Shown: piece by piece, positions 3,707 to 23,847 of the stretch | Position numbering within the stretch: position 1 is the stretch's first letter | Layout: every line of letters starts with the position of its first letter | NCBI RefSeq assembly: GCF_010731895.1 | Contig: NZ_AP022596.1 | Location: 2,418,001 to 2,482,000 of the forward strand | Direction: 5' to 3' | Source of the DNA: Mycolicibacterium helvum | GTDB lineage: Bacteria > Actinomycetota > Actinomycetes > Mycobacteriales > Mycobacteriaceae | DNA: 64,000 nt | The notes under the pieces: generated by a model | The model's input: the letters and a program-made list of their open reading frames with translations, nothing else | Told to the model about the DNA's origin: nothing | The model's database searches: none | Position numbers and translations under genes: made by a program

Positions 3707-3716
3707 GGGACCTCGG

Positions 3717-3750
3717 TTGTAGCTTCTCGAATCCGACTGCACTTTCTCAC
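3717..3750 (+). repeat. Degenerate extra copy of the element end
   Basis: Eleven bases after the dnaB stop the sequence TTGTAGCTTCTCGAA resembles the inverted-repeat core TTGTGGCTTCTCAAG that starts 60 bp further on. It is followed by a TTTCTCAC, like the second repeat unit. It may be a worn remnant of an earlier insertion at the same place. Confidence 0.4.
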
Positions 3751-3776
3751 GCTCCGCTGCATCAGCACCGGACTTG

Positions 3777-3854
3777 TTGTGGCTTCTCAAGTTTGATGTC
3801 CAATTCTCAACTCAAATGTCCACTCGATGTCCAATTGGACATTTCGGTGAGAAC
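3777..3854 (+). repeat. Left end of element 1 (inverted repeat with subterminal units)
   Basis: The terminal copy at 3777-3802 has the core TGTGGCTTCTCAAG and ends TGATGTCCA. A second unit, TTCTCA...AATGTCCA, lies at 3804-3822, exactly 20 bp inward. A third unit in the opposite orientation, TGGACA...TGAGAA, lies at 3836-3854. The same two-unit, 20-bp arrangement recurs at 17380-17418. Confidence 0.65.
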
Positions 3855-4100
3855 GCCCAGTCTGTGGAGTCACGATTGTGGGTGGGGGAAGGTCCGTCGG
3901 CGCCGGAGCGCAGGCCGCTGGCCTGCCCGCCGAAGGCAGTGCTTCCCCATGCGTGCACTTTCTGCGGTGGTTGTGGCTGGACGGCCTGCGAGTTTGCCGC
4001 GCATTCCGTCGCCGCTGATCGGGCGGGAAGGGCACACGATCTCTGCGCTCCCCCCGGCCGCCCCGGTGTTTCAGTTCCGCCACCACAGACAGCGCACATT
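3855..4100. other. Non-coding interval inside the left end of element 1
   Basis: About 245 bp between the left-end repeats and the first cassette-type site. Frames are open on both strands, but none has a convincing start, ribosome-binding site or recognisable product. This is where an integron would carry its integrase and attI, but nothing of that size fits here. Confidence 0.5.
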
Positions 4101-4205
4101 AGAGACACGCGATGTGAGACAAGAAATGAGACGCGTTGACCAGCGGTTACAGGATCGGGCAGTGGCCGATTAGAGGGTGTCTCTTCTCTCTAGTAATGAG
4201 ACAGG
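4101..4205 (+). repeat. Composite first copy of the 41-bp site
   Basis: A left half (GAGACAAGAAATGAGAC from 4116) is separated by an insertion from a right half (TTCTCTCTAG then TGAGAC, about 4184-4202). An 8-bp perfect inverted repeat, AGAGACAC at 4101-4108 and GTGTCTCT at 4177-4184, lets the whole region fold. It is the leftmost and most divergent copy, lying 82 bp before the first module gene. Confidence 0.5.
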
Positions 4206-4286
4206 TCGGCGCCACATGGCCTGGCCCCTGTGAATGGCGCTGACCGATAACAGATGCCAGCGAGTTGCGATTGGTAGATTGCCGTC

Positions 4287-4757
4287 GTGGTCAGCCGTGC
4301 TCTGTTGTTCCTGGACGTGGACGGCACGCTATTGCCCAACTATGGAGAAAAGCTCGATGCGACACTGGTCGATTGGCAGGAATGGCAGACTCACCGCAAC
4401 CCACGGCTGCCGCGGATCGATCGCTCGCTTGGTCAACGTCTGCAGGGTCTTGCCTGCGATTTGGTTTGGGCCACGGCCTGGATGCACGATCTGCCCGAAG
4501 CGCCGCTGGTGGATCCGATTGGCACCGTGGGCTGGAAGACGGCGGCGCTGGTCGCAGCTGCTGAGGGACGTCGCTTTGTTTGGCTTGACGACGAGATTTC
4601 TGACATCGATCGCGCATGGGTGAGCACACATCACGAAGGGGTAGCTTTGCTCCATTGCGTCGATTCGAGGTCGGGGTTGACCGAAGCCGATCTCACTACA
4701 GTTGGCGAGTGGCTCGATTTCTCGGAAAGCGAGACCGGGCAGGTGTCAGAGAGTTAA
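4287..4757 (+). CDS. HAD-superfamily phosphatase-like protein
   Basis: A 156-residue single-domain HAD protein without a cap insertion. Motif I is FLDVDGTLLP with the predicted nucleophile D10 and acid/base D12. Motif II is T63 (WATAW), motif III is K84 (GWKTAAL) and motif IV is D101/D102 (WLDDE). All catalytic residues are present, so phosphatase activity is likely; the substrate cannot be read from sequence. It starts with GTG 4287 and has no strong ribosome-binding site. It is the first module of the array, lying between the composite site and the site at 5001. The 243 bp after its stop hold no recognisable gene. Confidence 0.8.
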   Translation: MVSRALLFLDVDGTLLPNYGEKLDATLVDWQEWQTHRNPRLPRIDRSLGQRLQGLACDLVWATAWMHDLPEAPLVDPIGTVGWKTAALVAAAEGRRFVWLDDEISDIDRAWVSTHHEGVALLHCVDSRSGLTEADLTTVGEWLDFSESETGQVSES

Positions 4758-5000
4758 GCGGAAAGTGTGTCGCTGGCCGAATTCGATGAACCCCAACCGC
4801 TGTCATCCACAATGGCCTTGAGGATAAAGATCAATCGGCGCAGGAGTTTTGATCGGGCTTCCCGTTGACCGATTCGAGGGCACGCGCGGGTGAACGTCGA
4901 ATCCGGTTCGCCAAGCGCGGGATCGTGGCTCCGACTAAATCGACGGGAGTAACGAGGTATCGCCTACCCTCGACGAGGTTCTGTGAGGCGGCCCTGGTCT

Positions 5001-5043
5001 GAGACAGGAAGTGATCAGTCCCGTTTCTCTAGACCTCCGATGT
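5001..5043 (+). repeat. 41-bp cassette-type site, copy 2
   Basis: Starts GAGACAGGAAGTGATCAG and continues through TTTCTCTAGA to CCTCCGATGT. The right-hand GAGAC is replaced by CCGAT, as in the copy at 15260, with which it shares 22 identical bases at the right end. The stop codon of the minus-strand GrpB-GNAT gene lies just beyond it. Confidence 0.65.
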
Positions 5044-5045
5044 GA

Positions 5046-6059
5046 TTAAGAGTCAAGGGCTCGACGGCTTGCAAGGTAGGGATATGCCTCCAAGCGCACG
5101 CGGAAGCGTTCGACCCCCGGATATTTCTCGCCAAGGGAAGTGACGACGTAGCCGTTTGCTGCGTAAAAGCTGACGGCGTCTTCATCGGTTTCACCCACGA
5201 TCGGCAACGCAGATGGTCGGTCTCGATCTACTGCGGCGAGCAGCTGGCTGCCGACTCCGGTCCGCCGAACATGCGGGGTGATGGCGATGTGCAGCAGGGT
5301 TACCTCAGAAGTGCCCACTCTGTATCCGACGACGCCGACCGTTTCGTGGTCGATCACAGCACTCAGGAGCTTCGCCGTTGGGTCGTCGAAATATAGCTGG
5401 AGCGCGTCTCGGACGCGCTGCTGACCACCGCCTGCGGCCAGCGCAATCAAGCTGACGACGGCCTCACCCGCAACGGGGGGATGCTCAGCGACAAATGTAA
5501 TCTGGCGGTCGTCACCAGACAGATCCATTGCGGCAGTCCGCTGCCGAGCCTGCTGCAGGATCTCCTGTATGAGACCTCGTTTGCCCTCGGTGTATCTCTT
5601 CCGATTGGCGGCCAGGTGAACAGCTAACTCGTACTTGACATTTCCGTACCGCTTGGCGTCTTCTGGATGGCCCCGTAGGTGATCGCGAAAATCGATGTGA
5701 TCACGGTGGGCGATGGAGTCCGAAACGACGAGATACAGGTGGTGGTAGGGCCAATCCGGCGGATTCTCAAACGCTTGGCGGCCTGCGATGCCGAGATCGC
5801 CCTGGTGTCGGTAGCGTGCCCGGCAGAGGGCCGCCGTTGCTCGTGAGACCCATGCTGCCGTGGGAACCACAACGTCGACGTCGATCACTGGTTTCGCGCA
5901 AAGCCCGGGGACTGCAGTACTGCCAACATGTTCGACGCGGTGCTCAACGTTGCATAGTGCCGATGTGAGGCGATCCCGCAGTGCGGCGAACTGGAGCGGC
6001 CACGAAGTGTCATATGGGACTACCGAATCAGCCACCATGCCAGATCCTCGCACCGTCAT
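5046..6059 (-). CDS. GrpB (UPF0157)-GNAT fusion protein
   Basis: A 337-residue two-domain protein. Residues about 10-175 match the GrpB/UPF0157 nucleotidyltransferase-like family, with HVGSTAVPGL, the acidic pair in KPVIDVDV, and RDHLRGHP. Residues about 185-325 form a GNAT acetyltransferase with the acetyl-CoA loop VRRTGVGSQLL and a typical FYAANGYV near the end. The two families are usually separate, so the fusion suggests a shared small-molecule substrate, perhaps detoxification; this is inference. It ends 3 bp from the copy-2 site and is followed upstream by the P-loop kinase in the same direction. No frameshift is visible. Confidence 0.82.
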   Translation of the reverse strand: MTVRGSGMVADSVVPYDTSWPLQFAALRDRLTSALCNVEHRVEHVGSTAVPGLCAKPVIDVDVVVPTAAWVSRATAALCRARYRHQGDLGIAGRQAFENPPDWPYHHLYLVVSDSIAHRDHIDFRDHLRGHPEDAKRYGNVKYELAVHLAANRKRYTEGKRGLIQEILQQARQRTAAMDLSGDDRQITFVAEHPPVAGEAVVSLIALAAGGGQQRVRDALQLYFDDPTAKLLSAVIDHETVGVVGYRVGTSEVTLLHIAITPHVRRTGVGSQLLAAVDRDRPSALPIVGETDEDAVSFYAANGYVVTSLGEKYPGVERFRVRLEAYPYLASRRALDS

Positions 6060-6107
6060 CTCGCCCTGGGGTTGCTGCGTCCTCAGGGAAATTCTCCAGC
6101 ATAAGTC

Positions 6108-6635
6108 TCACGACGCTTCTCTAAGCCAGCTTGTTAGGGCGATGACGTCTGCGGCGATATCGCAGACCACACGATCATCGGTGGGGACCCGGTGTACCCA
6201 CTCTGCGGTGCTGTCGGCCAGCAGGCCAGCCTTTTCCCCGCTGGACTCAAGGTGTTGGTCGAGAGTCGAGCCAATTTCGCGCCGGCTAAGGCGTCGTCGC
6301 GCAGTGATGTCCGTGCATGTCAGCAGAATGGCGATGACCTTTGGGTCATCACCCATCGCGTCAGTCAACTGTGCGATCACGTCGGGAAGTACGCTCACCG
6401 TGCTGGTGTAGATCATGCGTCGGTAACCCAGCGCGCGATAGTTGCCCCACATCGCGGCGAGGTTGCGTTCAGCGAGCTCATGCTCCCATGGCGCCGGGTA
6501 GGCCATGTCGAGATAGTCACCATCGATCAGGCAGTGCGAGATACCAGCAGCACTGAGGCTGGCATGGACCTCGAAGGCAACACTGGTCTTGCCTACGCCG
6601 GATCGCCCCCCGATGAACACCGCCTCACTGGTCAC
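6108..6635 (-). CDS. P-loop kinase/ATPase
   Basis: The product is a small P-loop protein, 175 residues from the preferred GTG start at 6635 (VTSEAVFIGGRSGVGKTS). A longer form from ATG 6713 would add 26 residues rich in Ser/His/Cys that look non-native. Walker A is GGRSGVGKTS near the N-terminus. DGDYLD is a likely phosphoacceptor-binding acidic motif, and an Arg-rich lid follows (RRRLSRREIG). It resembles small-molecule kinases such as adenylylsulfate or resistance kinases, but the substrate is unknown. The stop codon overlaps a GTGAGAC motif, like cassette-type sites elsewhere in the array. The IS110-family element abuts its upstream side. Confidence 0.75.
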   Translation of the reverse strand: MTSEAVFIGGRSGVGKTSVAFEVHASLSAAGISHCLIDGDYLDMAYPAPWEHELAERNLAAMWGNYRALGYRRMIYTSTVSVLPDVIAQLTDAMGDDPKVIAILLTCTDITARRRLSRREIGSTLDQHLESSGEKAGLLADSTAEWVHRVPTDDRVVCDIAADVIALTSWLREAS

Positions 6636-6715
6636 CCTAGAAGTGTGGCTGCACAGAGGTGTTACGCGCGAGTCCTTTTCGCAGGCAGTCGGCGACCGAT
6701 GTGGGAGATCCATAT

Positions 6716-7948
6716 CTAGGCCACGGCCGCGCCCGGACGCGAGAATGCCCTGTCCTCGTTGAACAGCACTTGCTGTTGCAGGCAGTAGTGGAGTTGACCG
6801 ATGAGCTTGTTCAATAGGTGTCGGCTGGCCGCCGAGTGTCGGTCGCCGTGTTCTCTTCGTCGTCGGTAGTGCTCACCGGCAGGTCGGCAGTGAGTGGCAG
6901 CACCGAAGGCCCAGATCCACCCGGCCGCGGCGAGCCGGTCGTTCTTAATGCGCCGGTGGGTGATGGAGATGGACTTTCCGGAGGCTCTAGTGATGGGCGC
7001 GGATCCGGCGTAGGCCTTCAACGCACGGGCATCGACGAATCGGCTTCGGTCATCACCGATCTCGGCGAGCACGCGGGCACCGGTCGAGTCACCCAGCCCG
7101 GGAAAGCTGGTGATGATCGCGTAGTCCGAGTGGGTTTGAAACAGCTCGGCACAGGCCTGGCCCAGGTCGTCGACGCTGACGCATGCGGTGTCCAGCGCCG
7201 CGAGCAGCGCCGAGGTTTGCTTGCCCATCGTGGCCTCCACTTGAGCGAGGTGGCGCATCTGAGGCTCGCGCAGGGCTGTCTTGATCTCGGCGGCCGCGCC
7301 ATCGATGCCGCGACTGCGCCCGGCCCGGCGCAGCGCAGCGGTGATCCGGTTCGTCGAGAGCTTGGCGGCCGCACCGGGGGTGGGGGCAATGGCCAAGACG
7401 GCCCTGGCCTCGGAGCTGGCGATCCCGAGCGGGAATCGTCTGGTGAACGTGGCCAGAAAGGTCGGGAAGAACTCGCGCAGCATCGAACGTAACTCGTTGT
7501 GCGCCTTGATGCGTCGCCAGGTCGCATCCTGATGAGCGCGAGCCAGCACTGCGATCGCTTGGCACAACTCAGTATCGGCGGGCAAGCGCCGGTGCAGGTG
7601 AGCATCTACCCGGAGAATGTTGGCCAGGGTCATGGCGTCGGCGTGATCGGACTTCGCCCGTGCCACCGAGTGCCGTTCCCGGTAGCGGGCGACCGCGAGC
7701 GGGTTGATCGAATAGATGGCCCGTCCGGTTGCCCGCAGCGAGGCCACCAACAGACCGCGCGGCGTCTCGATGGCCACCGGGATCGGATCCGCGGCGCAAT
7801 CGCCGACCCCGGCGAACAGCTCGACCAACTGGGCCAGACCGGTGGGGTCATCGGCGATGCGCTTCTTGGCGACCAGCTGGCCGTTCTCGTCGACGATGGC
7901 GACGTCGTGGTGGGCTTCGGCCCAGTCGATGCCGCAGAAGAGTTTCAT
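6716..7948 (-). CDS. IS110-family transposase
   Basis: A 410-residue DEDD recombinase. The N-terminal RuvC-like domain has the tetrad D8 (GIDWA), E61 (AIETPRG), D101 and D104 (KSDHADA). The C-terminal Transposase_20 domain contains FPGLGDSTGARVLAEIGD and AYAGSAPITRASGKS, which carries the candidate catalytic serine. The length is normal and the frame is intact, so it may be active. The ATG at 7948 has AGGAGG upstream (GGAGGAACGACACC before ATG). Its TAG stop is formed at the CTAG junction with flanking DNA. Confidence 0.92.
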   Translation of the reverse strand: MKLFCGIDWAEAHHDVAIVDENGQLVAKKRIADDPTGLAQLVELFAGVGDCAADPIPVAIETPRGLLVASLRATGRAIYSINPLAVARYRERHSVARAKSDHADAMTLANILRVDAHLHRRLPADTELCQAIAVLARAHQDATWRRIKAHNELRSMLREFFPTFLATFTRRFPLGIASSEARAVLAIAPTPGAAAKLSTNRITAALRRAGRSRGIDGAAAEIKTALREPQMRHLAQVEATMGKQTSALLAALDTACVSVDDLGQACAELFQTHSDYAIITSFPGLGDSTGARVLAEIGDDRSRFVDARALKAYAGSAPITRASGKSISITHRRIKNDRLAAAGWIWAFGAATHCRPAGEHYRRRREHGDRHSAASRHLLNKLIGQLHYCLQQQVLFNEDRAFSRPGAAVA

Positions 7949-8206
7949 GGTGTCGTTCCTCCTATCAGTGGTCGGTTGAGGTGCGGCTCAACACCCCGAA
8001 TTGGGACGCGCAGCGCTCTACTTACGAGGCTCGATGGCCTTCCCTCCGATGAGCTGTTCGCGATCCCAGCGAACCCGCACGGCGCCCGTCTATGAGAGAG
8101 CTCTCGGCTCGAGAACGTCGAGGCGTTGAATCCGTGCGGGCGGGCAAGAACCACGGGCTAATCCCACTGAACACATCCCTTGCGACGCCGCCGCGACACG
8201 CACGGT
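7949..8206 (-). ncRNA. Candidate bridge (seek) RNA region of the IS110 element
   Basis: In IS110-group elements a structured guide RNA is encoded in the non-coding left end upstream of the transposase. This 258-bp segment is in that position and direction. It contains a 6-bp hairpin GTTGAG/CTCAAC (7975-7992), a 9-bp perfect inverted repeat CCCGCACGG/CCGTGCGGG (8074-8082 and 8132-8140), and between them the palindrome GAGAGCTCTC. The RNA identity is inferred from position and pairing only. Confidence 0.45.
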
Positions 8207-8245
8207 CTAGAGAAAGGACTCCAGGTCCGGAAACGAGATAGGCGT
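8206..8245 (-). repeat. Partial cassette-type site in inverted orientation
   Basis: On the minus strand the sequence reads AGTCC then TTTCTCTAGA, the right half of the 41-bp site with two bases missing. The left GAGACA half is not recognisable. It is interrupted at CTAG by the IS110-family element. The 120 bp between here and the next partial site hold no gene. Confidence 0.4.
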
Positions 8246-8365
8246 TTGCCGACGACCGGGGCCGCAAGGGTGAACCACCACCAGCATCATCAGGACGCCG
8301 GCCTCAAGGGAGGCCTCCACAACCCGATTGGTCACAGGCCGTCGCGAGGACACCAGCAGTGGTTC

Positions 8366-8388
8366 GGAACTAAGTAGATGTGAGACAT
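8366..8388 (+). repeat. Partial cassette-type site
   Basis: GGAACTAAG is followed by TAGATGTGAGAC, matching the right half of the copy at 10828 (TAGATGTGAGAC). A left-half-like stretch, GCGACAAGATCC, follows at about 8458. The site appears broken into two pieces around 70 bp of non-coding DNA. Confidence 0.4.
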
Positions 8389-8482
8389 GCAGTTACGACG
8401 TCGTACTGGCAGTGCTGCATCTGTGCAACAAATTAAGACGCCTGAAGTGAATTCGCAGCGACAAGATCCGGTCTCACCTCGC

Positions 8483-9368
8483 TCAGCCGGGAACGTGCTC
8501 GTGAGCGAAGCTGCGGATATAGGCGACGACGTCGCTTACGGCCTCACACGGCAACATGTGTCGCTTCCGGCCATAAGCGATGCCCCCACGTCGGCGCGAC
8601 GCGACGTATCCGGTCGATTCCCTTCGCAGAGTCGTGAATAGTGTTTCCTGCCAACAGAACTTGCACCGGGACATCGACTGAGTGCAGCAGGGGATCAGGT
8701 ATGTACCGGGGAAATGGCGTGCCGAAAGAAGCGAAGGCGGAACCGGCAGCCATCACCAACTCCATCACGCTGTCGAGGAGGCTGCCCGGTGCTGGGTGGC
8801 CGAGGATCTCGGCCACGGTGCACTGCTTACGCTCAGCACCTGGAAGCAACAGCAAGGCTCCGGTACGCCAGAACCGCGCAGACAATCGAGCGACTGTGTT
8901 GACGGGCTCGATGAGCGTCACTGACGCGAGTCGATCTGGAATTCGTGCCGCGGTTTGAGCGGCCGTCCATCCTCCATAGGAATGTCCGACGAGGTGCACG
9001 CCCGCCAAGCCAAGTCCCCCGAGTACCTGGTCAAGACAGCAGGCGCAGTCCCGCGCCGATTTCATCGACCGCGACTGCACGCTGGCGCCGGGTTGTCCGA
9101 GTAGATCAACGGTATAAACAGTGAAATCGCTTGTCAGAGCCGACACGTGCTCTGCCCACATTGCCGAGGTCGCCCAGAAGCAGTGCAGCAACACCACGGG
9201 AATCCCGCCGTCAGACCCGTGCTGATACACGCGCACGAGACCGAACTCGGTTGGCACATCATGCACGGCATCCGGTCTTGGACTCAGCGCCCGCACACGG
9301 TCGTAGACCGCGAGATAGCGCTGCCGTGACTCCACGCTGCGAAAACCCGACTTTTCCGACACTGCCAC
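8483..9368 (-). pseudogene. Alpha/beta hydrolase with a 3' frameshift
   Basis: The uninterrupted frame 8544-9368 encodes 274 residues of an alpha/beta hydrolase. It has VVLLHCFWAT (oxyanion region), the nucleophile elbow GHSYGG, and the catalytic-His region PEATH just before a premature stop. In the next frame the DNA continues LPCEAVSDVVAYIRSFAHE and stops at 8483. That is exactly the amphipathic C-terminal helix expected after the histidine. Removing one base near 8556 joins the two frames. The triad may still be complete, so residual activity is possible; a sequencing error is the alternative. The gene lies reversed between two cassette-type sites. Confidence 0.75.
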
Positions 9369-9496
9369 TACCTCCTACCCACAGGATTCCACGGATCGCG
9401 ATCGGACCGGACCTCCTGTTAGAGCAAAGGATCTGACCGGAGCCCCGTCCCAGGGGACCGGTCAGTGCCAGGTGCTTCGGAATCCGCACCGCATCT

Positions 9497-9537
9497 GAAA
9501 CAGGATCTGATCGGTCTCGTTTCTTTAGATCCGAGAC
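9497..9537 (+). repeat. 41-bp cassette-type site, complete copy
   Basis: Runs from GAAACAGGATCTGATC through GGTCTCG and TTTCTTTAGATCC to GAGAC. GGATCT and AGATCC form an internal inverted repeat, and GGTCTCG can pair with CGAGAC. A further GAGACAG occurs 10 bp to the right. It separates the reversed hydrolase gene from the Eis-like gene. Confidence 0.7.
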
Positions 9538-9604
9538 AGCGAACGTCTGCGAGACAGCCCAAATGAGAATGCGGTTCCCTGCTGTTCTGTGAAAGCGTCC
9601 GTGC

Positions 9605-10813
9605 ATGACTAGTACGACGCAACTGCCGGCGGGTGTCACGGTTCGCAGCGCGACTGATGCTGATTGGCCCGCCTTGAAGCTGCTGGCCGCGACGTGCTTC
9701 GGGTCGTTTCGAGACTCAGAGGTCACCGCCATGTGGCGGTCCATGATGCCGACCGATGGGGTGGTGGTGGCCAGCGTCGGCTCAAAGATCGTGGGCATGG
9801 CGATGTATCTGGATCTACGACTGACGGTGCCCGGCGGGGCTGTCCTGCCAGCGGCTGGGGTGACCTGGGTGGCCGTCTCGCCCACGCACCGCCGTCGGGG
9901 AATCCTGCGCGTCATGCTCGACGAGCTGCACCATCGCATCATCCACAGCGGGTATCCGATCGCCGCCCTGATGGCCAGCGAGGGCGGCATCTACGGCCGA
10001 TTCGGGTACGGACCTGCCGTCATAGAGCAGCGGCTACGGGTGCAGCGGCGCTGGGCTCGGTTTCATTCAGAGGTGCTCGACTCTGGGAATGTCGATGTCG
10101 TCTGCGCGGCCGAGCACGCGGAAGAGCTAGCGGCCATCGACGAACGCTGGCGTGAGCGCACACCGGGCGGACTGCACACTCCGCCCGCCATGTGGGCAGA
10201 AATGTTGGCCGACCGAGAATCCGCCCGGCACGGCGGCGGTCCGCTGTTCACGTTGCTCCATCCCGACGGATATGCGATGTACCGCGTGCATGCGGACACC
10301 GATTCCGTCGAGGTCACCCGGTTCGTCGCTGCCACCGCCGGCGCGCACCCCGCACTGTGGCGGGTGCTGCTCGGTTTGGACCTCATCGAGACGATCGCCG
10401 TTCACACCTACTCAGCAGACCCGTTGCCGTACCTGCTCACCGATGCGCGGCAGGTGGAAACCCTCGGTTCCCGAGACTCGTTGTGGTTGAGCATCATTGA
10501 CATCCCTGCCGCGTTGCGGGCACGCACCTACCAGGCCGATGTATCGGCGGTGATGGACGTCCGGGGTCCCGGTCTCGCCGAATCGCGGTTCACCGTAACC
10601 ATTCGCGACGGCAACGCTCACGTCGCGCCTACCGACAATCCCCCCGACTTCTACACTGACTTGTCGGTGCTGAGCAGCATCTACCTCGGGGCGCACCGGC
10701 CATCGGCCTTCGCATTGGCAAATCGGCTGCGCTGCCACGACGACCGCCTTCTCCGGCAGCTCGATCTGGCGTTCGCCAGCAACGTACCCGCCCAGGTCGG
10801 CTACGACTTCTGA
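9605..10813 (+). CDS. Eis-family N-acetyltransferase
   Basis: A 402-residue protein, the same length as M. tuberculosis Eis and collinear with it as I recall that sequence. Shared blocks are MYLDLRLTVPGG, the acetyl-CoA loop VAVSPTHRRRGILR, GGIYGRFGYGPA, DGYAMYRV, and the C-terminal SCP-like domain ending in the free phenylalanine carboxylate that acts as base. Eis enzymes acetylate amines of aminoglycosides at several positions, or host protein lysines, and form hexamers. Here the gene is a single module between sites at 9497 and 10828, so it was probably acquired. Drug range cannot be predicted. Confidence 0.9.
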   Translation: MTSTTQLPAGVTVRSATDADWPALKLLAATCFGSFRDSEVTAMWRSMMPTDGVVVASVGSKIVGMAMYLDLRLTVPGGAVLPAAGVTWVAVSPTHRRRGILRVMLDELHHRIIHSGYPIAALMASEGGIYGRFGYGPAVIEQRLRVQRRWARFHSEVLDSGNVDVVCAAEHAEELAAIDERWRERTPGGLHTPPAMWAEMLADRESARHGGGPLFTLLHPDGYAMYRVHADTDSVEVTRFVAATAGAHPALWRVLLGLDLIETIAVHTYSADPLPYLLTDARQVETLGSRDSLWLSIIDIPAALRARTYQADVSAVMDVRGPGLAESRFTVTIRDGNAHVAPTDNPPDFYTDLSVLSSIYLGAHRPSAFALANRLRCHDDRLLRQLDLAFASNVPAQVGYDF

Positions 10814-10827
10814 TCCTGCAAGCGACC

Positions 10828-10868
10828 GAGACAAGATCCGAGCCGTCCAACTTCTCTAGATGTGAGAC
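10828..10868 (+). repeat. 41-bp cassette-type site, complete copy
   Basis: Starts GAGACAAGATCCGAGCCG and ends TTCTCTAGATGTGAGAC. It begins 14 bp after the stop of the Eis-like gene, where an integron attC would stand relative to its cassette gene. Confidence 0.7.
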
Positions 10869-10933
10869 GGGGATCTGTTATCGCATAGTCGGTACTATCG
10901 ACTACGCGATGTAGTAGTGCTTCACTAGAAACT

Positions 10934-11338
10934 ATGGGCTCGAACGATGGTGGTCGACGAGGGCTTCAGGCAACCCTCGCTGTGCTTTCGGTAATCCCGT
11001 TTCTCTCCGGATTGTCAGGAATGCTGCTCGGCGTGAAGAGCCTGCCGAGTGACAACAGCCAGCTAGATGCGAGCGCTGACAGCGAATACCGGTTTGTCAA
11101 CGCATTCTGGTTCGCCACGGCACCAGCGATCTGGGCCGTCATCCCGCGCATCGAAGAACACACCGGATTCATGAGGCGCTTGACCGCCGTCGTCTTCATC
11201 GGCGGACTGGCCCGACTCGTCTCATGGCGAACCTCGGGTCGGCCGCATCCGGCCTTTGTCGCTGCGACAGCATTGGAACTTGTCGGTGTCCCCGCCGTGA
11301 TGGTGTGGCAGTCCCGCGTTGCGCGAGACAGGAACTGA
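10934..11338 (+). CDS. DUF4345-like small membrane protein
   Basis: A 134-residue protein with about four predicted transmembrane segments: residues about 13-33 ([20 protein letters not shown]), 55-70 ([16 protein letters not shown]), 82-97 and 105-123. The pattern ([15 protein letters not shown], then GGLARLVSW) fits the DUF4345 family, whose function is unknown. The last codons and the stop lie inside the 41-bp site at 11325-11365, so the site supplies the C-terminus (RDRN). It forms a one-gene module. Confidence 0.7.
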
Positions 11339-11365
11339 GCCGTCCAAATTCTCTAGTAGTGAGAC
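11325..11365 (+). repeat. 41-bp cassette-type site, complete copy
   Basis: Starts GAGACAGGAACTGAGCCG and ends TTCTCTAGTAGTGAGAC. It overlaps the stop codon of the DUF4345-like gene. It shares GAGCCGTCCAA with the copy at 10828. Confidence 0.7.
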
Positions 11366-11498
11366 AGCAGCGGAGTGTTTTGCGCCGACGAACTTATGCT
11401 GTGGCCCCGTCGTTTTGTGACTGGTGTCTGCCCCGGGTGAGGCGGTGCCGTCTGGTCGCGGCTAGCACGGGAATGCTGGACTTTGAGGGGGCGGCAGC

Positions 11499-12515
11499 TC
11501 ATGTGCCGGTGGTGCGGGGCGTGGCGTTGATCAGGCGTCCGTGGGTGACGAGGGACGTCGACTGCTTGAGCTGCTCGGTGCGAACGCTGATGTCGTAGGT
11601 AGCAAGGTGTCGAACTGCGGCGAAGCGGCCGGCGAGGTAGCGGTAGAGGTCTTCCTCGTCACGGCAGATGACGACGGCCATGAGGTTGCTACGTCCGGTG
11701 ATGGCTGCGACGAAGGCGACCTCATCGTGGGTGGCGAGCTGGTTTCCCACGGCGTGGGTATGTTCCGGGGGAAGGGTCAGCCACAGGATCGCGTTGACGT
11801 GGTAGCCCATCTGCTCGGGCAGAATGTCGACGTCGTAGAGCAAGGTACCCGACCTTTCCAAGGCGGTGAGGTGCCGCGCCACCCGCGGCACCGACCACCC
11901 GGTCGCTCGGGCCAGTTCGGCGTGGGACGCCCGTCCATCGCGTGCCAGTTCTACGAGCAGGGGCGCGTCGTCGCCGGTGGGGGCGGTCGGTGCGCCGTCT
12001 GCTGGTTCTTCGTGGCGGTACCTGCCTTCGACGACTTGGCGGGCTTGGGTACTGGTGAGCTTTTCGCCGTAGGCGGTCCAGACCGTCGTCGTTGCGTCAC
12101 CGAAGGAGTGCAGCATCAGGTCGACGCTGATGTCGAGGACGGCGGCGGACCGCGGAAGTTGTTGCAAGAGAGTCGGGTTACGTCCGGCAGTCTTGGGCGC
12201 CCGGATGATGCAGAGCAGTTCGGCCCCGCCTGACTGAATGCTGGTGTAGCCGATGTCGGGTCGGCGTATCAGCGCGTCGGCCAACTGTGCGACGCGGTCG
12301 GGTTTCACCCGGATGCGCGCGACCCACTGAGCAGCGCCGAGCACGCGGGGGTTGACCATGCCGGCGACCCGCAGCACCCCGTCCCGGCGCAGCTGGTGGT
12401 AGCGACGAGACACGGTCTGTTCGGACAATCCGGTGACCTCGGCGATGCGCCGGAAGGACACCCGAGGATACAGCTGCAGTGCGTGCAGTATCAGTCCATC
12501 GCCGGGGTGGCCCAT
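11499..12515 (-). CDS. Lrp/AsnC-family transcriptional regulator, double-HTH
   Basis: A 338-residue regulator with two AsnC-type units. The first HTH is at about 10-50 (VSFRRIAEVTGLSEQTVSRR) and the second at about 190-235 (SHAELARATGWSVPRVARHL). Each is followed by a ligand-sensing RAM-like domain. It is divergent from the hydrolase-amidohydrolase-SDR genes with 169 bp between the starts, so it probably controls them in response to a small metabolite. It belongs to the module between sites 11325 and 15260, the largest in the array. Confidence 0.85.
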   Translation of the reverse strand: MGHPGDGLILHALQLYPRVSFRRIAEVTGLSEQTVSRRYHQLRRDGVLRVAGMVNPRVLGAAQWVARIRVKPDRVAQLADALIRRPDIGYTSIQSGGAELLCIIRAPKTAGRNPTLLQQLPRSAAVLDISVDLMLHSFGDATTTVWTAYGEKLTSTQARQVVEGRYRHEEPADGAPTAPTGDDAPLLVELARDGRASHAELARATGWSVPRVARHLTALERSGTLLYDVDILPEQMGYHVNAILWLTLPPEHTHAVGNQLATHDEVAFVAAITGRSNLMAVVICRDEEDLYRYLAGRFAAVRHLATYDISVRTEQLKQSTSLVTHGRLINATPRTTGT

Positions 12516-12684
12516 GGAGGAAAGTATCCACGAAAGGCCATTCGAGCGGTGAAATCACCACACAATCGGTTCAGCGCGTGCCGAAACGATTCGAAGTCTG
12601 TGACGCTGATGGTGCTCTGCGAACGGCCACCAGATGCCGTGATGTGCACCGACGCAATGACTTCGACGATAGGAGGTGGCACAT

Positions 12685-13416
12685 ATGCCGCTACCCGACA
12701 GCACCCAGCTCCGCCCCGCTCTACTCCTGGTCCACGGTGCATGGCATGGCCCGTGGTGCTGGGAAGACCTCCTTCCCATCTTGTCGCGCCGCGGCTGGCG
12801 CTCTCACACGGTGGACTTGCCCTCAGGCCTCACTCCAGGCTCGCCGGCGCCGATGGCGGTGCCCGGCCTGTACGACGACGCAGCGGCCATCGCCGGCAAG
12901 CTCGCCGAGATCGCGGAGCCTGCCGTCGTCGTCGCACACTCCTACGGCGGCGCCCCGGTCACCGAAGCGTGCGCCCAGGTCGACAACGTCGCCCACCTGA
13001 TCTACCTGGCTGCGTTCCAACTCGACGTCGGTGAAAGCGTGCGCACATCGATGGGCGGCGACCCCACCCACGCGATCCCCGATGCTGGTTACTCACCACC
13101 GATGCACGCGGCGGACCTCTACTCCGACGTCCCGCACGACATCGCTGAACGTGCGACGCGGCGGCTACGCCTGCAATCCGATCCCAGCCGCGCTCAACCG
13201 ATCAGGACGGCCGGGTGGCGCACCATCGGATCGAGCTACGTCGTCTGCGACGACGACAAGGCAATCCCCCCGTCACGCCAGCTTCGGTTCGCCGCCCGCG
13301 CCGACGCGACCCACCATCTGCCCACAGGACACTCTCCGTTCTACTCCGCACCCGTCGAACTAGCCGACCTGCTGGACCTGATCGTCTCCAACGCAACCCG
13401 AAGCACTGCGCGATGA
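12685..13416 (+). CDS. Alpha/beta hydrolase (esterase-like)
   Basis: A 243-residue hydrolase. The oxyanion motif is LLVHGAWHGPWCW and the nucleophile elbow is AHSYGG. The C-terminal HLPTGHSPFYSAPVELADLL supplies the histidine. This resembles the EstC/salicylate-esterase-like group of plant and bacterial hydrolases. ATG 12685 is chosen because AGGAGG at 12671-12676 is properly spaced; a GTG at 12676 lies inside that ribosome-binding site. The stop overlaps the next start (ATGA), showing translational coupling with the amidohydrolase. Confidence 0.85.
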   Translation: MPLPDSTQLRPALLLVHGAWHGPWCWEDLLPILSRRGWRSHTVDLPSGLTPGSPAPMAVPGLYDDAAAIAGKLAEIAEPAVVVAHSYGGAPVTEACAQVDNVAHLIYLAAFQLDVGESVRTSMGGDPTHAIPDAGYSPPMHAADLYSDVPHDIAERATRRLRLQSDPSRAQPIRTAGWRTIGSSYVVCDDDKAIPPSRQLRFAARADATHHLPTGHSPFYSAPVELADLLDLIVSNATRSTAR

Positions 13417-14414
13417 GCCGCGAAGCGATGCGCGTCATCGCCATCGAAGAGCACTACGCCGACCCAGAACTCCTCGCCGCCAACGGGTTCGACGTCTCCC
13501 GGCTCCCTGCGTCACGCCGCGCCGGGCTGACCGATCACCGGGTCCGCCTGGCCGACATGGACCGCGCAGGCATCGACCTACAGGTGCTCTCAGCGCTGCC
13601 GCCCGGAATGCAACACATCCCTGGCACACGCGCGGCGATCGAGGCCCGCGCCGCCAACCGCCGACTCCACGAGCAAGCACTCACTGTCTGGCCCCATCGC
13701 TTCGCCGCGTTCGCCACGCTACCGCTGACCGATCCCGACGCCTCGGCAGCCGAACTCAACTATGCAGTACGCGAACTCGGCTTCCTCGGAGCCATGATTC
13801 ACGGCATGGCCGGAAACCGGTTCCTCGATCACCCCGACTTCGCGCCAATCCTGGATGCCGCCGCCGAACTGGGGGTCCCGCTCTACCTACATCCCGGCTT
13901 CCCACCGCTAGCGGTGATCGAGGCCTACTACTCGGGTTTGTCGCCGGTGACCGGGCATGCGTTGGCCACCCACGCCTACGGCTGGCACTACGAGACATCG
14001 CTGCACGCGCTTCGGCTGATCGCCGCCGGCGTGTTCGATAGGCTGCCCACGCTGCAAATCATCCTGGGTCACCTCGGGGAGGGATTGCCCTTCCACCTGC
14101 CGCGCATCGAACGGATGCTCGCCGAAGCCGCGCCGCATCTGGCCCACCCGGTCAGCAGCTACGTGCGGAACAACTTCTGGATCACCACAAGCGGCTACTT
14201 CGACGACGAGCCTCTCCAGCTCGCGCGCCACATCTTCGGCGACGCCAGGATCATGTTCTCCGTCGACTACCCCTTCAGCGACAACACGACCGCTACCGAC
14301 TGGCTTCATGGGCTCGGGCTCGGGCTCGATACACGGCACGCGTTCGCCCACCGCAACGCCGAACAACTGCTCGGACTCACATCCCCCGTCGATGCGCCCG
14401 GAGCAACCCTGTGA
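13413..14414 (+). CDS. Amidohydrolase-family decarboxylase/hydrolase
   Basis: A 333-residue TIM-barrel amidohydrolase of the ACMSD/gamma-resorcylate decarboxylase type. The N-terminus RVIAIEEHYA carries the metal-binding E-x-H variant. Further ligands are H in LYLHPGFPP, H in ILGHLGEG, and D in FSVDYPFSDN. Members decarboxylate aromatic acids or hydrolyse related rings. With the esterase before it and an SDR after it, a short aromatic or ester breakdown pathway is plausible but unproven. The start at 13413 overlaps the previous stop, and the end overlaps the GTG of the SDR. Confidence 0.85.
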   Translation: MSREAMRVIAIEEHYADPELLAANGFDVSRLPASRRAGLTDHRVRLADMDRAGIDLQVLSALPPGMQHIPGTRAAIEARAANRRLHEQALTVWPHRFAAFATLPLTDPDASAAELNYAVRELGFLGAMIHGMAGNRFLDHPDFAPILDAAAELGVPLYLHPGFPPLAVIEAYYSGLSPVTGHALATHAYGWHYETSLHALRLIAAGVFDRLPTLQIILGHLGEGLPFHLPRIERMLAEAAPHLAHPVSSYVRNNFWITTSGYFDDEPLQLARHIFGDARIMFSVDYPFSDNTTATDWLHGLGLGLDTRHAFAHRNAEQLLGLTSPVDAPGATL

Positions 14415-15187
14415 CCGCGACCCTGCCACTGGCCACTAAGAGCGCACTGGTCACCGGTGCGAGTAGGGGCATCGGCGCGGCGATTGCGCGACGGCTCGCC
14501 TCGCAGGGAGCCGCCGTGGCGATCACATACCGGACTGACTGCCAGGCCGCCCACCGTCTCGTTGAGGAACTTAGGCAGGTGGGCTGCCGAACAGCGGCAT
14601 TTCACGCCGACATCAGTGACCACGCACAGATCCATCACCTCATCGACGAGGTCGCCGCGGAGTTCGGTGCTGTTGACCTGCTGGCCAGCAACGCTGGTGT
14701 CGAGCATTTCGGAGCTCTGAATACCCTCACGCCCGAGGAATTCGACCACGTGTTTCACACCAACGTCGCCGGCCAACTCTTCCTCACCCAAGCCGCCATC
14801 ACTGCGATGCCGCCCAACGGACGCATCGTCCTCACGTCTTCGGTCAGCGCGCGCGTCGCGTCCTACCATCACGCCTTGTATGCCTCCAGCAAGGCTGCCG
14901 TTAACGCGCTTGTTCTCAGCTTGGCGCCGGAATTGGCCGAACTCGGAATTGCTATCAACGCGGTCGCACCCGGACCCACCAACACCGACATGGGCAGAGA
15001 GCACGCACAGTCCTACATCCACCCAGCGATGCGCGATGTTCCTCCCGCCGTACTGATCGCCTCAATGAACGCCCTAGGCCGATCAGCTCAGCCCCAAGAA
15101 ATCGCCGCGGCCGTCACGTTCCTGCTATCGCAAGATGCAAGACACATCACCGGAACCACGCTCGATGTATCCGGCGGCTGGATGTGA
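14411..15187 (+). CDS. SDR-family oxidoreductase
   Basis: A 258-residue classical short-chain dehydrogenase/reductase. The cofactor motif is TGASRGIG and the NAG motif is SNAGVEH. The catalytic set is Ser in LTSSVS with Tyr/Lys in YASSK. An Arg-rich turn after the second strand (TYRTD) hints at NADP(H). GTG 14411 overlaps the preceding TGA, so it is the third gene of a coupled operon. The substrate is unknown; it probably acts on the product of the neighbouring hydrolases. Confidence 0.88.
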   Translation: MTATLPLATKSALVTGASRGIGAAIARRLASQGAAVAITYRTDCQAAHRLVEELRQVGCRTAAFHADISDHAQIHHLIDEVAAEFGAVDLLASNAGVEHFGALNTLTPEEFDHVFHTNVAGQLFLTQAAITAMPPNGRIVLTSSVSARVASYHHALYASSKAAVNALVLSLAPELAELGIAINAVAPGPTNTDMGREHAQSYIHPAMRDVPPAVLIASMNALGRSAQPQEIAAAVTFLLSQDARHITGTTLDVSGGWM

Positions 15188-15259
15188 CGCACAAGGCGAC
15201 CAGCAAGTAACGGGGTCCTCCGCGACGACCTTCGAGCGTGGCGTCAAGTGCGAAGGTGC

Positions 15260-15302
15260 GAGACAAGATCTGATCACTCTCGTTTCTCTAGACCTCCGAT
15301 GT
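15260..15302 (+). repeat. 41-bp cassette-type site, right end variant
   Basis: Starts GAGACAAGATCTGATCAC and continues TCTCGTTTCTCTAGA to CCTCCGATGT, identical to copy 2 over the last 22 bases. It lies 72 bp after the SDR stop. The 130 bp from here to the HIT gene contain nothing recognisable. Confidence 0.65.
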
Positions 15303-15439
15303 TTTTAGTTGTCAACTTTCCCTACATGGTTGGCGGCCCGTGGCCTGTCGATCGTGCCGGTGTCTACTGATTTGGGGGTGCGAACCACAACTGGAGACGG
15401 ACCGACTTCGAGGCAGTTTGCTGCCGCCCGTTGGTCTTG

Positions 15440-15901
15440 TCAGACTGCGCGTCCATCCTGTCGGTCGATGGCGGCGGAGAGCCGATCGCCAAGAGCCGCA
15501 ATGAGGTTCATGTCACCCCGAATCCCTGGCTGCCAGGGCAGCACCAAGTGATCTTTGGTCTTGTCGACGTACCGTGGAATCACGTGCAGGTGGAAGTGGA
15601 ATACCGTCTGCCAGGCATCGGCACCGCAGCAGTTCAGCAGATTGACCCCATCGGCGTCGAGCTCGGAAACGACGGCTCTGGCGAGGCGTTGCGCTGCGCA
15701 GCTGACAGCGGCGAGGTCGTCGGCCGGAATGTCCAGCAGGTCTCGGCTATGCCGTTTGGGAATGACGAGAAGGTGTCCGTATGAGCCGGGATGGATATCC
15801 ATGAACGCACACGTGGTGTGGTCTTCGGCGACCTTCACGCACGGAACGGCCCCAGCCACGATGCCGCAGAACACATGGCGAGTTCCCGATACTGAGTCCA
15901 C
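15440..15901 (-). CDS. HIT-family protein
   Basis: A histidine-triad nucleotide hydrolase/transferase of up to 153 residues. The N-terminal pattern FCGIVAGAVPC, PGSYGHLLVIPKRH and the triad HFHLHVIP are all present, so AMP-lysine or nucleotide-hydrolase type activity is likely. The longest frame begins with a GTG at 15901 that lies inside the left end of the IS3-family element. The native start may be further in (GTG before FCGIVAG) or may have been replaced by the insertion. It is the last gene module of element 1, in reverse orientation. Confidence 0.8.
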   Translation of the reverse strand: MDSVSGTRHVFCGIVAGAVPCVKVAEDHTTCAFMDIHPGSYGHLLVIPKRHSRDLLDIPADDLAAVSCAAQRLARAVVSELDADGVNLLNCCGADAWQTVFHFHLHVIPRYVDKTKDHLVLPWQPGIRGDMNLIAALGDRLSAAIDRQDGRAV

Positions 15902-15934
15902 CCGGTTCTCGAGTCGGGTTGGTTTGATCCGTTC

Positions 15935-16768
15935 TCAGTTGATGCTGCAGGCCACCGGGGTGTGGGTGCACCTGCACGCCGCAGCGTACTCGGCCGGCGT
16001 CAAGTACCCCAGGGCCTAGTGGCGGTGTCGGTGGTTGTGCTCGTGCTTGAAGTCGCCGATGACCACGCGGGCCTCGAACAGGGTGTTCCAGTAGTTGCGG
16101 TTGAGGCACTCCTTACGCAGTCGGTTGTTGAACGATTCGATGTAGCCGTTGTCCCACGGGCAGCCCGGCGGGATGTACACCATGCCGGTCTTGTTCTTGC
16201 AGAACCGTTGCAGCGCTGCCGAAACCATCTCCGGTCCGTTGTCCATGCGCAGCACCTTCGGTGGGCCACCATGGGCGGCGAACACCTCCGTGAGCTCCTC
16301 GACCAGGCGTTCGCCGGTGATCGAGCGCTCCACCAGGTTCAGCAGCGACTCGCGGGTGTGTTCGTCAACCATCGAGGCGATCTTGATGGCCTTCCCGTCG
16401 ATGGTGGAGTCGAACTGGAAGTCGATCGCCCACACCACCTTCGGCGCATCGGCGAGGACCGGCGGTACCGAGGAGACCCCGGCCCGCTTGCGGGGGCTGT
16501 GCACCCGCACCTGCAGACCTTCCTCGCGCCACAGGCGGTGGATCTCCTTCTTGTTGACCTCACGGCGCTCGTTGTAGCGCAGCGCCGCCCAGGCTCGCCG
16601 GAACCCGTGGCAGGGGTGTTTGGTGGCATAGGCGCGCAGCCAGGCCCGCATGTCGGCGTCCGGATCATCAGGGGTCTGCCCGAGCGGCAGGCGGCGGTAG
16701 GTGGAGCGGGCCAGCCCAACAGCCTTGCACGCCAACCGTTCCGACATGCTCAAGGTGTCCTTGAGCAT
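15935..16768 (-). pseudogene. IS3-family transposase OrfB with an in-frame amber stop
   Basis: The frame reads from 16768 (MLKDTLSMSERLACK) to a TAG at 16016-16018. It contains an HTH_21-type region and the DDE integrase core: D in WAIDFQFDS, D in RMDNGPEM, E in NGYIESFNNRLR. After HNHRHRH the TAG replaces the Ser of the usual RHRHSALGYLTPAEY. The same frame then continues ALGYLTPAEYAAACR to a natural TGA at 15935. The catalytic triad is intact, but about 27 C-terminal residues are lost unless the stop is suppressed. OrfB is normally made by frameshifting from OrfA. Confidence 0.85.
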
Positions 16769-16797
16769 GTCGACGGCGCGGCGCTTGGCAGCTGGGC

Positions 16798-17088
16798 TCA
16801 GAATTTTCCCTTCGCGACCTCCCGCAACGCGTCCTTCTCAAGCTCGGCCTCGGCCAGCAGCCGCTTGAGCCGGGAGTTCTGCTCGCGCAGCTCCTTGAGC
16901 TCCTTGGCGGCGTCGGTGTCCATCCCGCCGTAGGTGCGCCGCCAGTTGTACAGCGTGGCCGGCGAGACCTGCAGCTCGGCCGCGATCTCCTCGCCAGTCT
17001 TGCCCTCAGCAGCCAGCTCATCCGCCCGGCGCAACTTGCGCACGATGTCCTCCGCGGAATTCCGCTTCCGACCAGCCATGTGTCCCAT
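16798..17088 (-). CDS. IS3-family transposase OrfA
   Basis: A 96-residue OrfA from ATG 17088 (MGHMAGRKRNS), which has GAAGGGA just upstream. The helix-turn-helix reads IAAELQVSPATLYNWRRTYGG, and a leucine-zipper-like coiled coil follows (ELKELREQNSRLKRLLAEAE). It binds the element ends and donates the N-terminus of the OrfAB fusion. A longer frame back to 17142 would start inside the inverted repeat and is not preferred. Confidence 0.88.
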   Translation of the reverse strand: MGHMAGRKRNSAEDIVRKLRRADELAAEGKTGEEIAAELQVSPATLYNWRRTYGGMDTDAAKELKELREQNSRLKRLLAEAELEKDALREVAKGKF

Positions 17089-17181
17089 CGTCCCTTCTGG
17101 CCCGACATCGGGCCACAGGACTCTAAAACTGGTTGGATTCATTCAGCGGGAACACGCCACCCGTTTTGTCCCCGTCCCCAC

Positions 17182-17222
17182 GAGACAGGAAGTGATTAGT
17201 CCCGAATCTCTACAAACGAGAC
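17182..17222 (+). repeat. 41-bp cassette-type site, last complete copy
   Basis: Starts GAGACAGGAAGTGATTAG, continues TCCCGAATCTCTAC and ends GAGAC. It is the last copy and lies only 30 bp from the right-end repeats of element 1. The array therefore fills the element from end to end. Confidence 0.68.
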
Positions 17223-17251
17223 AACATGGTTGGCCCTAAACGATGGCCGAG

Positions 17252-17354
17252 TGGACACGAAAGTGAGAACTCGTGGGGTGGACATCACCTGAGAACGGCG
17301 CTATCCGAGTAGCTCAGCGAACGGCAGGTGGACATGAAACTTGAGAAGCCACAC
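17252..17354 (+). repeat. Right end of element 1
   Basis: Three units in one orientation: TGGACACGAAAGTGAGAA (17252), TGGACATCACCTGAGAA (17279), and the terminal TGGACATGAAACTTGAG (17329) ending GAAGCCACAC. The spacings are 27 and 50 bp. Exactly the same spacings occur in the right end of element 2. Confidence 0.7.
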
Positions 17355-17372
17355 GGCGGCGGCGGAGGACGG

Positions 17373-17418
17373 GTGTGGCTTCTCAAGTTTGATGTCCATT
17401 TCTCATCTCGAATGTCCA
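17373..17418 (+). repeat. Left end of element 2
   Basis: The terminal unit GTGTGGCTTCTCAAG...GATGTCCA (17373-17398) is followed by a second TTCTCA...AATGTCCA unit (17400-17418), 20 bp inward. A degraded third unit follows. This repeats the layout of the left end at 3777. From here to the TetR gene (17586) nothing else is recognised. Confidence 0.68.
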
Positions 17419-17585
17419 TTAGATGTCACTTTTCGGGAAGAGTTGATCGCGTCGAGATCGTCCCGCTGGCCGGCGGCGCGGGCCAGGACTCCGATGCGAG
17501 TGCGACGAAGGCGAGAAGCCGGTTGAGTGCGGATTGAGCCCGACTTCCGTTCAGCGGGCTCGACGGCGACTCCGTGGACTGCCGT

Positions 17586-18179
17586 CTACGTGCGGAACCG
17601 TCGTGGACTGCTGGCCCGGGTGATGGTCGCCAGCGTGGCGTTCACCGCGTCATCCACCGTTTCCTGAGGCGTCTCGGTAAGACCGGTCGCCGCGCGCAGA
17701 TAAGGTTCCAGTAGGAGCCAGCCGACCTGCAGGGCAACGGCATTGGCGGCGGCGAGGCGCGCTTCGAGCTCGGTGTCGAACGCGTCGGACAGCTCGTCGA
17801 TGAGGATGTCGACGCCCGGAAAGCGGGTCTGCAACTTGTCGGCGGGAAACCCGTCCAGCAGGGCGCGAGCGACTACCACCGCGTGGGTGTTGACCGCCGT
17901 GTCGAAATCCTCGCCGCGCTGGCGATCGTTGATCAGCTCGAGCAGGCGATCGCCGAGGTGGTCGAGGACCGCGGCGATGAGATTCTCCTTGGTGCCGAAG
18001 TGCCGAAAGACCAGACCGTAGGTCACGCCCGCCTCGGTGGCGACATCGCGCAGTGAGGTTCTTGCAGGCCCGCGTTCGGCGAAGAGGGTGGCTGCGGCAT
18101 CGAGTACGGCCGGCACGACGGCATCGCCTGCGGGGCGAACCGCGGGTGACGTAGGCGAAGTTGCACGAGTTGTAGCCAT
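17586..18179 (-). CDS. TetR-family transcriptional repressor
   Basis: A 197-residue TetR regulator. The N-terminal HTH reads TSLRDVATEAGVTYGLVFRHF with the usual FGTKENLIAAVLDHL continuation. The C-terminal ligand domain is all-helical. The start codon lies within an 18-bp perfect palindrome, and a second copy lies between the gene and the divergent hydrolase operon. It therefore very likely represses both itself and that operon, releasing DNA when a hydrophobic ligand binds. The ligand is unknown. Confidence 0.92.
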   Translation of the reverse strand: MATTRATSPTSPAVRPAGDAVVPAVLDAAATLFAERGPARTSLRDVATEAGVTYGLVFRHFGTKENLIAAVLDHLGDRLLELINDRQRGEDFDTAVNTHAVVVARALLDGFPADKLQTRFPGVDILIDELSDAFDTELEARLAAANAVALQVGWLLLEPYLRAATGLTETPQETVDDAVNATLATITRASSPRRFRT

Positions 18180-18188
18180 GTGGCTACA
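18171..18188. promoter_or_regulatory. TetR operator 1
   Basis: TGTAGCCATGTGGCTACA: 8-bp perfect arms with a 2-bp centre. It covers the start codon of the TetR gene. Confidence 0.85.
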
Positions 18189-18203
18189 TTAGCCTGCGGG
18201 AAC

Positions 18204-18221: not shown

Positions 18222-18248
18222 GACGGCGGTCATGGTGAGAGGCGCTAC

Positions 18249-23798: not shown

Positions 23799-23847
23799 CC
23801 GTTCCTCCATTTGATTCGAGACTTGAAGTATCGACCGTAACAGATTC

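Follow-up and report, generated by a model that had tools for sequence, protein, structure and literature searches.

Six copies of a 41-base-pair (bp) site stand in the same orientation downstream of dnaB (2246-3706) in the stretch analysed here, a window of 64,000 nucleotides (contig NZ_AP022596.1 of assembly GCF_010731895.1, positions 2,418,001 to 2,482,000) from the 6.40-Mb single-contig chromosome of the mycobacterium Mycolicibacterium helvum. We propose, at a probability of about 0.83, that the sites form an orphan array and belong to an integron-like system whose enzyme is a small serine recombinase. This proposal is drawn from sequence comparison, namely from the conservation of the site, the fixed geometry and uniform orientation of its arrangement, the linkage of recombinase and attachment complex, and cassettes found in different surroundings with junctions on the site. 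An integron is defined by the integrase IntI, the attachment site attI and the cassette sites attC, and we use attI and attC for the corresponding parts of the system described here. A complete platform comprises an attI-like complex of ~100 bp, in which accessory GAGAC motifs precede a 24-bp 11-2-11 palindrome, and, 35-46 bp away, a divergent gene of the invertase/resolvase type. Cassettes of mostly one or two genes follow, each ending in a 41-bp attC-like site.

The six sites of the window (Table 1) had been listed at the same positions by a first-pass annotation made from the sequence, and a 43-bp profile trained on 118 sites, none from the window's own genome, ranks exactly these six first, at 44.3 to 64.5 bits. 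No other position in the window scores above -1.3 bits (reached at 4161, in overlap with the attI-like core), and 10 Markov control sequences of 64 kb peak at 5.4 bits. A stricter consensus pattern gives 3 matches versus 0.00 expected from shuffles, and with up to three mismatches the whole genome has 11 sites in three clusters, the reversed-pattern control giving 0. The annotation was also right that four sites (2, 3, 4 and 6) close with another GAGAC, 36 bp beyond the first, sites 1 and 5 running into ACCTCCGATG, and that sites 3 and 4 lie at the 3′ ends of genes, one open reading frame ending just before site 3 and another within site 4. Its three partial copies fared less well, as the one at 4101 is an attI-like platform complex and no partial cassette site, and those at 8206 and 8366 fall outside the top 14 profile matches of the window; judged by eye, the latter two are at most half-site debris around an element of the insertion sequence (IS) family IS110.

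As read from base counts, the consensus of the site is YGAGACARGATCTGATCGACCTCGAATCTCTAGAAACGAGAC. Its right part is an imperfect 11-2-11 palindrome, of ideal form GTCTCGTTTCT-CT-AGAAACGAGAC, and a single outer arm, GAGACARGA, lies on the left side. The fetched loci contain 128 attC-type sites that are not identical to one another, and these differ from attI in having this extra outer arm and no accessory region. A strict site (at most two mismatches) is present in 45 of 198 genomes of the genus, with 0 matches for the control pattern in every row, whereas 5 of 298 sampled genomes of the order match, all of them of the same genus. The site is hence not a fixed intergenic sequence of one species, as it recurs between different genes across genomes of the genus. 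The reversed control pattern did give one match, in genome G320, which is without true sites, and lone weak pattern matches need care. Many of the genomes are drafts, so that missing platforms may lie on other contigs, and since genomes and plasmids are related and non-independent, the Fisher values and pair counts given below are indicative only.

Neighbouring sites (at least 40 bits, less than 6 kb apart, nine loci taken as copies left out) share a strand in each of 60 pairs. This constancy bears on the possibility that the sites are the ends of a transposon or insertion sequence that spread copies, which would accord with the IS110 and IS3 transposases in the window array and with the terminal inverted repeats that enclose it. 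Neighbouring sites are, however, never inverse and have different genes between them, and the Tn3 transposase, the only transposase family searched genome-wide, is found in few genomes and on contigs other than that of the recombinase. As nothing observed makes the site an IS end, we regard this explanation as very improbable. A Tn3 transposon as such was rejected, PF01526 occurring in 3 of 38 genomes (the 37 recombinase genomes described below and the window's own), always on another contig.

At array heads, palindromic cores without the outer arm are preceded by a conserved accessory block like GAGACACGCGGTGTGAGACAAGAAATGAGACA, of which 84 were found in 54 of the 198 genomes. The co-occurring recombinase that the first-pass annotation had proposed to look for is a small serine recombinase encoded beside this attI-like complex. 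A profile search for it gives 52 genes above 260 bits in 37 genomes, and for 48 of these 52 clade genes an attI accessory block lies 35-46 bp from the gene start, in divergent orientation; among the 72 lower-scoring matches, 4 have an accessory block, these being partial matches, and the other 68 have none. attI is present in all 37 recombinase genomes. Across the genomes searched, attI and site occur together in 28, attI only in 26, site only in 17 and neither in 127 (Fisher p ~1e-8). Within 25 kb on the same contig, 28 of the 84 accessory blocks have a strict site, all of these sites being on the attI strand and nearly all downstream, with sites upstream of the block at G142, G151 and G152. 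Of 80 recombinase loci, 65 have the accessory block, with a spacing from accessory block to core of 76-79 bp in 62 of the 65. Array sites (at least 30 bits) are present in 17 of the 80 loci; there are 34 of them, every one directed away from the recombinase gene in the same way as attI. Two of the 17 lack a recognised attI and one lacks a core.

The full-length enzymes have 188-219 amino acids, and the two clade proteins scanned have PF00239 plus a C-terminal HTH_7 domain. The active serine is invariant in 8 of 8 aligned rows, two of which, as cut, are without the C-terminal part (the L098 recombinase, with an internal stop, was excluded from the alignment). Their best PDB matches are a DNA-invertase, followed by gamma-delta and Tn3 resolvase. 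In all eight fetched records the recombinase is on MobF plasmids of 23-44 kb. Among the recombinase loci, L214, L215, L217, L220 and L221 are recombinase-attI pairs on 23-27 kb plasmids of M. intracellulare and M. abscessus that have mobF and carry chromate, mercury, cadmium or tellurium genes; the metal genes follow attI in the first four, and the tellurium genes of L221 lie on the opposite side. The M. abscessus plasmids with this pair have no attC-like site of at least 12 bits, and the platform alone is also found on Mycobacteroides plasmids. A search of phages with one attI region gave no match.

In the window, the stretch 4090-4215, which spans the attI-like complex, has matches in 35 plasmid records, each of them from a Mycobacterium, Mycolicibacterium or Mycobacteroides. 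A tblastn search of the window with nine recombinases found no relative, and the best match to the recombinase profile in the window's genome is a paralogue at 222.8 bits. The array is thus an orphan, without a recombinase gene of the clade, so that further cassette movement in this chromosome would need an enzyme acting in trans.

The likeness to integrons is functional. In both, the recombinase gene is divergent from the attachment site, a one-way array starts there, and mostly small cassettes each end in a site (although most recombinase loci here are without an array); in both, as far as comparison indicates, cassettes common to different species occur in new orders with junctions exact in the site, though exceptions exist. 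An ordinary integron whose integrase and attC had diverged would share this layout of platform, attI, one-way array and small cassettes, and weak tyrosine recombinase matches to the integron model do occur in 45 of 45 array genomes. They occur just as well in 14 of 14 controls, whereas the integron integrase model TIGR02249 is above its cut-off in 0 of the 45. The first-pass annotation had also noted that no integrase is present. The enzyme at attI is the small serine recombinase, with PF00239 plus HTH_7, and IntI is a tyrosine recombinase. The sites are conserved in sequence and not in fold, with no GTTRRRY core in their base counts; gene orientation is mixed, and the attachment complex resembles resolvase res. 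Among 11 stretches folded, 7 pair both core arms in the best structure, yet one reaches z <= -2 relative to shuffles (range -2.10 to 1.58), and with z above -2 in the other 10, folding of the site as a single strand in the manner of attC was rejected. We therefore see next to no chance that the array is an ordinary integron.

A different source for the enzyme was offered by a two-gene element, of about 390 and 594 amino acids, that is next to three arrays and emerged as the first recombinase candidate from an all-against-all comparison. It lies upstream of the first site and is oriented as the sites are (L013:9943-14586, L044:12347-18027, L057:2006-5754). The element is present in 15-16 of 198 genomes, however, 12 of 13 further element loci are without a site, and at the conserved end the element has a hairpin of its own. 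The candidate was dropped on these last two grounds, and that it is the recombinase now seems most improbable. By eye, the shorter protein is tyrosine recombinase-like and the longer one DDE transposase-like; those proteins of the element that were tested gave no Pfam family over cut-off and no NCBIfam, PHROG or PDB match.

Evidence of cassette movement comes from cassettes present in more than one setting (pairs taken as copies of one contig were excluded here and from the count of homology ends below). A two-cassette block of 4,012 bp, holding an FAD oxidoreductase with a MerR regulator plus a chromate pair, is the same with zero mismatches in a contig of Mycolicibacterium sp. CR10 (locus L145, which is L058 in the opposite reading) and in pMi27 of M. 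intracellulare, the recombinase-attI regions of the two being 78.6% alike. In pMi27 the block follows attI, whereas in CR10 an extra cassette of ~1.3 kb lies between attI and the block, so that the block follows attC. A further copy, in M. poriferae pJCM12603, is 99% identical, and the right flanks of all three are different, diverging 0 or 1 base after TCTCTAGA. The same cassette is likewise found after attI in one genome and after attC in another for L108 versus L060 (88% over 197 bp) and L155 versus L172 (89% over 886 bp). Ten pairs of sites have the same left flank (at least 80%); in three, the flanks are 98-99% identical over 200 bp with different right flanks, two of these diverging right after TCTCTAGA and the third sharing the neighbouring half-site and diverging a few bases later. 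More generally, 71 of 783 internal homology ends in the fetched loci (non-independent pairs) have a site no more than 25 bp away in both partners, of attI type in both for 55 and of attC type in both for 14, versus a mean of 0.04 and a maximum of 1 over 300 random placements. Among 73 non-identical attI, the left flank is common to 2,214 pairs, and the right flank is also common in 24. Taken as a comparative record, these cases support the idea of the first-pass annotation that cassettes are recombined here at a site other than the attC of integrons: many genomes carry the site, between genes that differ, the neighbours of cassettes change, and cassettes appear to have moved between surroundings with junctions mostly within the site.

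The same observations may be set against a narrower explanation, in which the recombinase and its res-like complex serve plasmid multimer resolution only, the array sites are decayed res copies from plasmid integration, and the breakpoints arose by homologous recombination. The occurrence of the recombinase on MobF plasmids in every fetched record, the many recombinase loci without an array and some breakpoints off the core all speak for it. The attC-type form is nevertheless conserved and distinct from attI throughout its non-identical copies, and the junctions of the mismatch-free 4-kb block fall within a word of ~8-9 bp common to otherwise different flanks. A word of that length is too short for ordinary homologous recombination. 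We consider resolution alone to be unlikely.

Several points nonetheless weigh against the proposed integron-like system. An array site was not found at 63 of the 80 recombinase loci, within flanks of up to 10 kb and often less, and the recombinase may therefore mainly serve plasmid resolution. Conversely, 17 of the 45 site genomes are without attI at the pattern threshold, which draft assemblies may explain in part. Among the ten left-same pairs, two of the older cases, L163 versus L045/L046 (one case seen twice) and L179 versus L036, differ already inside the left part of the site, and among 12 right-same pairs L014 versus L044, from the same genome, breaks in the left part and not in the core; such breakpoints off the core may reflect a second exchange point close to the outer arm, or conversion there. 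Some site-to-site intervals hold several genes or none, and gene orientation is mixed (29 with the site, 21 against), unlike that of typical integrons. Two window segments used as queries gave no DNA match in plasmids, and recombination itself is deduced from comparison.

The cargo was described from 81 site-to-site intervals (L045, which overlaps a duplicate in L046, excluded), with our own codon-based gene calls in the fetched loci. Sites are a median of 1,247 bp apart, and one gene was called in 37 intervals, two in 17, none in 13 and three or more in 14. A set of 124 proteins (133 listed, minus ten that were short, uncertain or a near copy, plus the window gene 12676-13416) includes members of 121 Pfam families, such as DinB-like proteins, mycothiol transferases, GrpB, acetyltransferases, hydrolases and methyltransferases. 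Defence genes as the main cargo were rejected, members of the 124 scanned matching 10 PADLOC families. Protein relatives within arrays of other genomes, at 43-76% identity, exist for five window genes (HAD, GrpB-GNAT, kinase-like, hydrolase and HIT).

Small serine recombinases cleave the two DNA strands two bases apart, in the middle of a palindromic site. In the system proposed here, recombinase dimers would bind the core palindromes of attI and attC and cut at or near the central two bases of TCT-CT-AGA, with strand exchange to follow. Exchange between attI and attC would insert a cassette circle next to attI, and exchange between two attC would excise or swap cassettes. The accessory motifs of attI, which resemble the regulatory part of res, would tell the platform from a cassette site, and the asymmetric CT centre would give the sites a direction, which would account for the one-way arrays. 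From comparative evidence throughout, we infer the chemistry of the reaction, the precise position of the cut, the cassette circle as intermediate and the direction in which cassettes insert. A further role of the recombinase-attI pair, on small MobF plasmids, is probably the resolution of multimers.

Among known systems, the Tn3/gamma-delta and Sin resolvase-res systems and the Gin-type invertases share the protein family, the palindromic core with accessory motifs and the divergent gene. Resolvases and invertases act between two like sites, to resolve or invert, whereas in the present system the sites between the genes of an array differ from the one platform site to which the array is linked, and are simpler. 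The staphylococcal cassette chromosome (SCC) likewise gains blocks of genes at one place through serine recombinases, Ccr. These are large serine recombinases, carried by the SCC element itself; the enzyme here is a small serine recombinase, and NCBIfam CcrB matches it weakly, at 25 versus a cut-off of 900 bits. As integron, Tn3 and SCC each failed in a defining feature that was tested, the system is distinct in kind from all three. To our knowledge, gene-cassette capture has so far been tied to tyrosine recombinases (integrons and Xer modules). On Acinetobacter plasmids, pdif (dif) modules are described as genes flanked by recombination sites and moved by an enzyme not carried in the module (PMC6449649, PMC7399989). 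They resemble the present system in having site-flanked genes on plasmids and an enzyme outside the module, and differ from it in using the chromosomal tyrosine recombinases XerC/XerD, as opposed to a dedicated serine recombinase beside a platform site, so that the distinction is one of enzyme superfamily. The pdif modules and SCC elements are the nearest functional parallels, with different enzymes. A kind defined broadly as 'site-specific cassette systems' would include the array system. A literature search, with preprints and most subscription journals outside its scope, found no description of such a system.

We think it probable that mycobacteria evolved a second, independent integron, in which a serine-recombinase platform derived from a plasmid resolvase captures, stores and shuffles cassettes via double-stranded sites, between plasmids and chromosomes of Mycobacterium and Mycolicibacterium, with orphan arrays, that of this window among them, as cassette stores. 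If so, the integron way of life would have arisen more than once, and mycobacteria would have an extra route of gene capture, including on plasmids with mercury, cadmium and chromate genes. It would also provide a new recombination tool with defined sites, and it opens to test the evolutionary step from a system for plasmid resolution to a platform for gene capture.

Table 1. Features of the window array and of the unit that encloses it (window coordinates).
Feature	Coordinates	Strand	Remarks
Left terminal inverted repeat of unit enclosing the whole array	3778..3802	+	possible carrier, outside the site system
attI-like complex, accessory part with three direct GAGAC motifs	4102..4133	+	2 mismatches to pattern
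attI-like complex, palindromic core	4179..4202	+	4 mismatches to GTCTCGTTTCTCTAGAAACGAGAC; 77 bp from start of accessory part
Cassette 1, HAD-like protein (PF18143)	4287..4757	+	relative, in two pieces, in array L047
attC-like site 1	5001..5041	+	profile match; right half replaced by ACCTCCGATG
Cassette gene, GrpB-GNAT fusion	5046..6059	-	relative in another genome's array, L061:7108-8118, 43%
Cassette gene, P-loop kinase-like	6108..6713	-	relative in array L055:9987-10514, 62%
IS110-family transposase, within array	6716..7948	-	
Cassette gene, alpha/beta hydrolase	8544..9368	-	relative in array L057:14313-14891, 57%
attC-like site 2	9497..9537	+	profile match
Cassette gene, GNAT plus SCP2-like protein, 402 amino acids	9605..10813	+	
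attC-like site 3	10828..10868	+	profile match
Cassette gene, DUF4345	10934..11338	+	
attC-like site 4	11325..11365	+	profile match
Lrp/AsnC-type regulator	11499..12515	-	
Hydrolase, amidohydrolase and SDR genes	12676..15187 (12676-13416, 13215-14414, 14411-15187)	+	
attC-like site 5	15260..15300	+	profile match; right half replaced by ACCTCCGATG
Cassette gene, HIT protein	15440..15901	-	relative in array L053:7670-8098, 74%
IS3-type transposase pair	16016..17142	-	
attC-like site 6, last of array	17182..17222	+	profile match
Right terminal inverted repeat of array-enclosing unit	17329..17353	-	pairs with 3778..3802

No known RNA family reaches its gathering score in 3500-18000. The unit that encloses the array has 25-bp terminal inverted repeats (TGTGGCTTCTCAAGTTTGATGTCCA, 96%), and a second such unit, with repeats of 88%, lies at 17373-24937; a genome search with one repeat end gave three matches, all at these two units. 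The transposases seen within the first unit are just the array-internal IS110 and IS3.

In several genomes, attI and attC sites have a motif like ACCTCCGATNNNNNTAAGWGTCAA after GAGACAAG, GAGACGAG or TCTCTAG (window 5030 and 15288; L061:7089, L062:9392, L162:9939, L093:7634), and this motif resembles the terminus of an unknown element that would take such sites as its target. IS110 relatives, with proteins 71-76% identical, lie beside or near sites in three genomes (window 6716-7948, L044:8785-10214, L062:12748-13986), and they are reminiscent of elements of the IS1111 type, which target the attC of integrons.

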